Assembly (NCBI GenBank): GCA_013140705.1
Contig: JABFSH010000020.1
Span: 186,001-250,000, forward strand
Origin: Methylococcaceae bacterium
GTDB taxonomy: Bacteria; Pseudomonadota; Gammaproteobacteria; Methylococcales; Methylomonadaceae
DNA length: 64,000 nucleotides
Direction: 5' to 3'
In this document: positions 32,758-34,143 of the stretch, one piece after another
Position numbering within the stretch: position 1 is the first letter of the stretch
Layout of the letters: each line of letters opens with the position of its first letter
Made by a program: the position numbers and the translations under genes
Notes under the pieces: model-generated
Seen by the model: only the letters and a program-made list of their open reading frames with translations
Database searches by the model: none
What the model was told of the DNA's origin: nothing

Positions 32758-34143
32758 ATGCAACAAAAAGACTCTTGGCTGTTACCCGAAGGCATAGAGG
32801 AGATTTTGCCAGAAGATGCCAAGCATCTGGAAAATTTGCGCAGCAGGTTTCTGGAGCTATTTGCCAGCTGGGGCTATGAACTGGTTATCCCGCCATTTAT
32901 CGATTTTCTGGATTCCCTGTTGACGGGATCCGGTCATGATCTGGAATTGCAAACCTTTAAACTGACCGATCAACTGAGCGGCGAAATGCTTGGTGTCAGG
33001 GCCGATATGACGCCTCAAGTAGCGAGAATTGATGCTCATAATCTCAAGCATGAATGGCCCACTCGGCTTTGTTATGTCGGAACCATTCTGCATACTCGCG
33101 GCGACCCGCTGGAAAAAACCAGGAGCCCGATGCAATGTGGCGCCGAGCTTTATGGCCATGCCGGTCAGGAAAGCGATATTGAAGTCATTCGATTGATGCT
33201 GGAAACGCTGGCTATGACCGGTTTGCAGAATGTACACCTTGATCTGGGTCACGTAGGTATTTATCGCGCATTGGCCGAACAAGCCGGATTGTCGAACTCC
33301 CAGGAAAGTAAGCTATTCAACGTGTTGCAGCGTAAAGCCAGACCCGAACTTCGCGAATTGATGGATAGCTACGACATTGACCCGAATCTCAAAAACATGT
33401 TGTTGAAATTACCAGAGCTTAATGGCGCTAAAGAAATCATTGCAAAAGCCGGGGACGTATTTGCAAAAGCAAATGACAAGGTGAAAAAGGCCTTGAGCGA
33501 TCTGTCGGCGATTGCCGAGCAATTGGCCTTACGATTTCCGGCCTTGCCAATCAGTTTCGATCTGGCAGAATTGCGTGGTTATCATTATCATACCGGTGTC
33601 GTATTTGCCGCATTTGTGCCGACTATAGGCAGGGAAATCGCGCGAGGAGGTCGCTATGACAATATTGGTGGCGTTTTTGGTCGAGCGCGTCCGGCAACAG
33701 GTTTCAGTGCAGATTTGAAATTATTATCGACACTTAACAAACAATTATATGACATTGACAAGCGGGAGCTCATTTTTGCTCCTTATCTGGATGATGCTGA
33801 TTTAAATGAAAGAATCAGAGAAATACGCACGCAGCAACGGGCGGTTGTTCAGGGCTTGCCAGGTCAAACTGGTACCCCGGAAGACATGGGCTGCACGGCA
33901 ATGTTAGAGCGTGATAACCAGCGCAACTGGGTCATTACATCATTAGCATCAGTAAACATGCCAGGTGTTGCTCAACCTTCTGCATCCGTGCAGTCGTCGG
34001 CAATTGCTCCAGGCATTGCACTACCTCCTGCATCCGTGCAGTCGTCGGCAATTGCTCCAGGCATTGCACTACCTCCTGCATCCGTGCAGTCGTCGGCAAT
34101 TGCTCCAGGCATTGCACTACCTCCTGCATCCGTGCAGTCGTAA
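32758..34143 (+). CDS. hisZ: ATP phosphoribosyltransferase regulatory subunit with repeat-derived C terminus
   Basis: HisZ is a catalytically inactive histidyl-tRNA synthetase homologue that activates short-form HisG in histidine synthesis. Residues 1-395 are normal: [15 protein letters not shown] at the start, motif-2-like [11 protein letters not shown] near 82, and the late [20 protein letters not shown]. From about residue 402 the frame enters a 48-bp direct repeat, so the last 60 residues are a repeated 16-residue unit ([16 protein letters not shown]), ending in TAA at the repeat edge. The ATG at 32758 gives the family-like start; a GTG at 32743 is possible. It lies upstream of purA, as in other proteobacteria. 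Confidence 0.92.
33961..34140 (+). repeat. 48-bp direct repeats at the 3' end of hisZ
   Basis: Three full tandem units start at 33980, 34028 and 34076, followed by a 17-base partial unit at 34124-34140. A diverged partial unit precedes them from 33961. Each unit reads CTGCATCCGTGCAGTCGTCG then GCAATTGCTCCAGGCATTGC then ACTACCTC, and contains the small palindrome CTGCATCCGTGCAG. The three units appear identical, which suggests recent expansion. The length is a multiple of three, so the hisZ frame stays open. A single relative lies at 1372-1443. There are no spacers, so this is not a CRISPR array. Confidence 0.9.

Follow-up and report, generated by a model that had tools for sequence, protein, structure and literature searches.

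A dispersed two-hairpin element of 48 bp as the probable source of a repeat-built C-terminal tail on HisZ in a Methylococcaceae bacterium

Introduction

In a draft genome of a Methylococcaceae bacterium, the gene hisZ ends in a run of 48-bp repeats that is read through in frame up to the stop codon, which raises the question of where such a tail comes from and whether it matters to the protein. The window, that is, the whole stretch of 64,000 nucleotides that was analysed, holds the genes hflC, hisZ and purA in a row, as found by profile search. A sequence-only reading of this DNA had placed the end of the conserved HisZ body near residue 400 and had proposed that a dispersed repeat entered the 3' end of the gene and expanded there without loss of the reading frame. 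Here, we describe the array, the family to which it belongs, the state of the same site in relatives and the fate of the tail. We consider it very probable that a short dispersed element of two hairpins entered hisZ before its TAA and was duplicated to four units, the resulting tail being most likely neutral.

The repeat array at the end of hisZ

The HisZ profile NF009086 was covered almost completely (2-388 of 389) and its match stops at residue 400 of 466, as the sequence-only reading had it. In a search of the PDB, the best local alignments to the HisZ structures 8oy0 and 5m8h end still earlier, at query residues 372 and 330, before the tail. The features of the locus are collected in Table 1, including purA, which the same reading had correctly placed after hisZ.

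Table 1. Features of the hisZ locus and of the second copy of the element (positions in the 64-kb window)
Feature	Position	Strand	Remarks
hisZ body	32743..33948	+	402 codons from GTG; NCBIfam NF009086, 507 bits, residues 7-400
ATG after the GTG of hisZ	32758
Element unit 1	33949..33996	+	diverged, 36/48 vs unit 2; codes 16 residues
Element unit 2	33997..34044	+	codes 16 residues
Element unit 3	34045..34092	+	identical to unit 2
Element unit 4	34093..34140	+	identical to unit 2
Native hisZ stop TAA	34141..34143	+	from comparison with junctions in relatives
purA, gene after hisZ	34157..35449	+	PRK01117, 657 bits
Second element copy, long form, 70 bp	1372..1441	-

The only array that TRF reported in the window lies at 33961-34141, with a period of 48, 3.8 copies and 96% matches. 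When the array was cut by script, it was found to run from 33949 to 34140, that is 192 bp or 4 x 48 bp, in frame, so that its true start lies 12 bp before the position 33961 given earlier. Its translation forms HisZ residues 403-466 (64 amino acids), one variant 16-mer followed by three copies of another 16-mer; the tail is thus built from repeats in frame as had been read, but from four whole units, one of them diverged, rather than from three identical units with partial copies amounting to some 60 residues. A 24-base core of the unit, searched with at most three mismatches, has five matches in the window, four of them in the array, and the number expected from 100 shuffles is 0.00, which excludes chance for the array. 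The fifth copy, at 1372-1441, adjoins text that resembles another dispersed palindrome.

Three identical units of 48 bp in a draft of 82 contigs raise the suspicion of an assembly artefact, either of the array or of its copy number, for short reads can miscount such repeats. However, the first unit is diverged, frame and boundaries are exact, and other genomes carry a single intact unit at the same site, and we hold this explanation to be extremely improbable.

Anatomy of the element

By folding, the unit consists of two hairpin modules, A TCGGCAAYTGCTCCNTGCRTTGCTC and B TACCTCCTGCATCCNTGCAGTCG. The common unit of 48 bp corresponds to 16 codons and is closed in only one of its six frames; in a long form, about 22 bp are added. 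On the minus strand, GTAG precedes module A, which there reads GGTAG-AGCAAC...GTTGC. Inspection by eye revealed weak symmetry at most at the ends of the element, and many copies nested in other palindromic repeats.

The stems were counted over occurrences in the collected loci, which are not independent events, with G-U scored as paired. Module B (CTGCA-TCCN-TGCAG) occurs 230 times, with the consensus in 189 and a broken stem in 14; both arms are changed and yet fully paired in 16 of the 230 (CTCCA/TGGAG and others), and one side is changed with pairing kept in 11. For module A (GCAAC...GTTGC), the consensus accounts for 105 of 174 occurrences and broken stems for 16, the stem being fully paired in 158; in 53 both arms are changed and paired, 40 times as GCAAT/ATTGC, the form seen in hisZ. 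Both stems are thus kept by two-sided changes that preserve pairing. The loop of module B reads ANGGAY on the minus strand in all loci, the second base being free, and resembles a CsrA/RsmA site.

The paired changes in both hairpins are also what would be expected of an element acting mainly as RNA, as a terminator, a stability hairpin or a CsrA/RsmA site, whose location in genes is incidental. Where the element lies between co-directional genes, its GGA strand is sense in 39 cases against 23, which points the same way, but this bias is slight and comes from a crude ORF caller, hisZ transcribes the other strand, and recognition by CsrA is presumed. Rfam gave no match to the element at 33700-34500 of the window nor, by position, at the arrays of the loci L158, L191, L199 and L211. 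A primary role as RNA therefore appears unlikely.

A dispersed family in Gammaproteobacteria

The proposal that the tail derives from a dispersed repeat was borne out by a search of the whole genome (4.28 Mb, 82 contigs), which had been suggested together with it: the region has 37 BLAST matches, and the 24-base core with at most three mismatches has 48, compared with 0 for the backward pattern. In the same family, a 20-base core with at most one mismatch was found in 101 of 201 genomes, one of which has as many as 97 matches. Within the class, the 24-base core with at most two mismatches was present in 62 of 369 genomes, the own genome included; the backward-pattern controls shown for the family and class counts are zero. 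The tandem junction matched 82 stretches of named genomes, and the hosts among the 80 of these matches that were listed are Methylobacter, Methylomicrobium, Methylotuvimicrobium, Methylovulum, Shewanella, Cellvibrionaceae and other gammaproteobacterial bins, with no record from the Rickettsiales among the same 80 of 82.

In the arrays that were observed, the units follow one another head to tail, in most cases with a spacing of 47 or 48 bp; many copies stand alone. The genome of Shewanella sp. KJ10-1 has 112 pattern matches, and its longest arrays comprise eight 47-bp units. In its loci L135-L211, two to eight units of 47 bp stand in recurring flanks, for example GGCATAGTTGCTC...GTACGTCAAAATA, and units and flanks together form a larger repeat whose core varies in unit number. 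No match to the element was found in phages, and plasmid matches came from seven records, namely five large Pseudoalteromonas replicons and two cases of pglX. In the BREX gene pglX of a Salmonella IncR plasmid (L307:3440-3600), part of the PglX sequence is encoded by DNA that resembles the element, DDCMDAGGRATQ, and such a stretch is also present in a Moellerella plasmid and two E. coli chromosomes. A clean insertion into pglX was considered and rejected: two other aligned E. coli homologues have a different stretch at this place, each 18 bp shorter, which amounts to a replacement.

The hisZ-purA junction in relatives

In many relatives the site is empty, with hisZ ending in ...PLA-TAA and the ATG of purA coming after a short spacer, for example GCT-TAATTTGGAATCATTATG. 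In the window this text is interrupted between GCA and TAAATTTGGAATAGTTATG, which places the insert immediately upstream of the native TAA. The stop itself, the spacer and the start of purA are all retained, and the distance from the hisZ stop to purA is the same as in relatives with the plain junction. The stop codon does lie exactly at the edge of the repeat, as had been noticed, but the junctions of the relatives show that the TAA is native to hisZ and is not supplied by the repeat. No target-site duplication was seen when occupied and empty hisZ sites were compared by eye.

The comparison of the junction, likewise suggested by the sequence-only reading, comprised 71 hisZ loci, of which 60 were regions picked, not at random, from a listing with a match in 203 of 237 genomes and 11 were others, including that of the window. 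The HisZ tree has 70 rows, the partial HisZ of G205 being left out; the junction of G005 was unread by the junction script and was read in a separate junction comparison. At the hisZ stop position, 15 of 70 loci, which belong to seven genus groups, carry the element or a relic of it (G000; G218; G082, G034; G175, G199, G209, G126; G070, G047, G008; G093, G013; G167, G149), so that its entry is not unique to the genome of the window. Nothing of the element is present there in the other 55, and the tail is hence not the ancestral trait conserved across the family that would have contradicted the proposed insertion. Of the 71 loci, that of the window alone has four units, and the sites of G070, G093 and G013 were read as two partly decayed units. 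In one further locus (L427 of G003), the spacer between hisZ and purA contains a long extra insert of different sequence.

The history of the site may have involved repeated entry, transfer of hisZ, or one old entry followed by many losses. On the HisZ tree the 15 occupied loci require nine changes, at least six of them forced by well supported branches. An old insertion at the hisZ stop of an ancestor, lost elsewhere by clean deletion or gene replacement and not repeated, would bear only on the history of the site and is compatible with the main explanation. It could account for the CC(A/G)GGC that, as seen by eye, is shared in module A by G000, G070, G047 and G175, in place of the common dispersed CCATGC, and these four lie in one part of the HisZ tree; transfer of hisZ could also have spread the element. 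The number of changes speaks against it, as do the common ATGC form in G082, G218, G167 and G149 and the plain junction in most unoccupied loci outside the group g15. A single clade of occupied loci was rejected (p-AU 2.4e-5, a value that assumes a group named beforehand), although a single gain with losses need not form a clade. In g15 itself, 14 of 16 hisZ loci have neither the element nor the usual TAA, their HisZ ends in ...LASLE or similar and the reading frame now stops within the former hisZ-purA spacer; this loss of the usual TAA could be the scar of a deletion of the element, and would then fit an old insertion. On balance, we regard a single old entry as possible, if somewhat doubtful.

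Insertion, duplication and the question of a mobilising enzyme

In the explanation that we favour, an element of about 48 bp would have entered hisZ directly after its last sense codon, in front of the TAA. As the unit has 16 codons and, in its common form, lacks stops in five of six frames, such an entry would add 16 residues, keep the native stop and leave the start region of purA unchanged. A later head-to-tail duplication in the lineage of the window would have raised the number of units to four; slippage or unequal recombination, which direct repeats readily undergo, would be the simplest route.

RAYT transposases are the natural candidate movers for GTAG hairpins according to passages of two papers on such repeats (PMC8266576; PMC3733652). 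Genes with a Y1_Tnp match were not seen near the element more often than we would expect by chance: it was found within about 1.5 kb of one of 30 Y1_Tnp loci (30 of 77 matches), with about two estimated by chance, and in the own genome none of 10 Y1 loci is near a copy. In Shewanella sp. KJ10-1, tens of kb separate the one Y1 gene from the closest of the copies listed. A rule by which the element targets hairpin loops was also tried and abandoned. A fold test placed 12 of 34 sites in this class compared with 15.1 at random positions, and an arm test was weakly positive, with an arm of at least 5 bp at 11 of 80 sites, where 40 random draws gave 4.9 on average and 9 at most; this excess is driven by families of host palindromes and is not claimed as a rule.

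The element inside genes and at other stop codons

Copies in genes were assessed with 147 distinct element contexts, in which open frames were taken from stop to stop and classed, by thresholds of our choice, as long (at least 200 codons) or short (fewer than 130 codons), those between being uncounted; loci that came from the protein search were dropped for the main count. The total length of the element is divisible by three in 38 of 41 contexts in long frames and in 20 of 74 elsewhere (Fisher p = 2.9e-12). With a threshold of 300 codons the long-frame count is 33 of 35, and with nothing dropped the counts are 49 of 53 and 23 of 77. Single copies measure 48 bp in 22 of 28 cases in long frames and in 11 of 55 elsewhere, where the commonest length is 47 bp (30 of 55). 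Such a bias towards multiples of three is expected if copies that shift the frame are removed from genes.

Twenty open frames, taken from the 53 long-frame contexts, were checked against family profiles and all 20 have a family match. One continuous profile match runs across the element in 11 of them, in HrpA (two genomes), UvrC, ValS, HypD, a FadB-like and a PseB-like protein, a DAO oxidoreductase, an ATP-grasp protein, an IS110-type transposase (L323, G163) and a Mur ligase that holds two elements. The names of the FadB-, PseB- and IS110-type proteins are loose, since their matches score under the curated cut-offs. In the other nine, among which L036 looks like two genes read together, the element is located outside the matched domains or between them, near an end, or possibly between adjacent genes.

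Among 137 contexts, the element is flush with a stop codon (distance 0, sense frame) in hisZ of four genomes, leuC of G034 and rsmH of G094. The 16-residue tails of the latter two follow complete proteins, the NCBIfam profile being matched up to 466 of 466 in LeuC and 309 of 310 in RsmH. TAA directly follows the element at 43 distinct sites, largely searched for by their TAA and not a random sample, of which six are these gene ends (hisZ four times, leuC and rsmH); at the remaining 37, the open frame upstream does not exceed 70 codons and, by eye, these sites often lie inside other palindromes.

Fate of the HisZ tail

Seven of the 15 occupied loci encode a tail that runs uninterrupted up to the native stop (G000, G218, G082, G034, G175, G167, G149), and in G047 it extends three residues further. 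A stop inside the element shortens HisZ again in six (G199, G209, G126, G070, G093, G013), and G008 has a relic alone, located after the stop. The in-frame stops in six of 15 suggest that the tail is probably near-neutral, the first of the two outcomes envisaged by the sequence-only reading. Recruitment of the tail for a function in assembly of the HisZ-HisG complex, stability or localisation would agree with the open loci, G047 included, and with the recurrence of the same type of peptide. We nevertheless think it very unlikely, given these in-frame stops, the 55 of 70 loci that lack a tail and a peptide that is a by-product of a repeat also found in other frames and outside long frames.

More broadly, one might picture a living mobile element of 16 codons that repeatedly enters the same stop-flush position, in hisZ of several genera, leuC and rsmH, as well as many coding sites, and so is a recurrent source of C-terminal tags and in-frame linkers across Gammaproteobacteria; we put this forward tentatively and consider it rather unlikely in this full form.

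Comparison with known repeat systems

Searches of the open literature with DNA and peptide strings returned no description of the element, and it goes unmentioned in passages of papers on REPs, RPEs and MITEs (PMC3733652; PMC8266576; PMC2229807; PMC10969869; PMC4853749). By analogy, it appears to work like the Rickettsia palindromic elements (RPEs) and intragenic REPs.

MITEs such as Correia/NEMIS and ERIC are likewise small, non-autonomous dispersed repeats, and part of one account has it that MITEs can fuse in frame to genes (PMC2229807). They differ from the hisZ element, which is smaller, shows by eye only weak end symmetry and has no target-site duplication that could be seen at hisZ.

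GTAG REPs are palindromes of 20-50 nt preceded by GTAG, as defined in a passage of PMC8266576, and the element agrees with this in its minus-strand GTAG and in the paired stem of module A (158 of 174), while the unit also has a second hairpin. With REPs, REPINs and BIMEs it has in common a short hairpin, many copies, partly nested in palindromes, and the location of some copies in genes or at gene ends. Sections of PMC3733652 describe REPs inside genes, REPs that provide stop codons and clusters of REPs that code for 43-82 amino acids. The unit of the hisZ element, in contrast, is made of two different hairpins and its GTAG does not supply the stop of hisZ; among GTAG REPs, inverted pairs (BIMEs, REPINs) are common and head-to-tail pairs rare, whereas the arrays described here are direct and tandem. 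A link to a RAYT gene was not seen for the element, which lies near one of the 30 Y1_Tnp loci and none of the 10 of the own genome.

Another related kind is the RPEs, beside which protein-coding palindromes of Wolbachia are named in the portion of the literature consulted. RPEs, too, are dispersed palindromic repeats fused in frame within genes of conserved proteins, which for the present element are HrpA, UvrC, ValS, HypD and others. They are rickettsial and are given as 105-146 or about 150 bp long, unlike the 48 bp (16 codons) of the element found in Gammaproteobacteria, a distinction drawn from descriptions; the hisZ element is, moreover, modular, forms head-to-tail arrays and is also found flush with stop codons.

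In cultured relatives such as Methylobacter and Shewanella, one could study by which route elements of this kind spread when no transposase is apparent, and in what way proteins acquire tails and linkers. The in-frame insertion of small repeats into proteins is best known from Rickettsia and from some cases of REPs; here, a very small repeat of methane oxidisers and their relatives combines a strong signature of frame preservation with housekeeping genes as hosts and the occupation of one stop codon in several genera.
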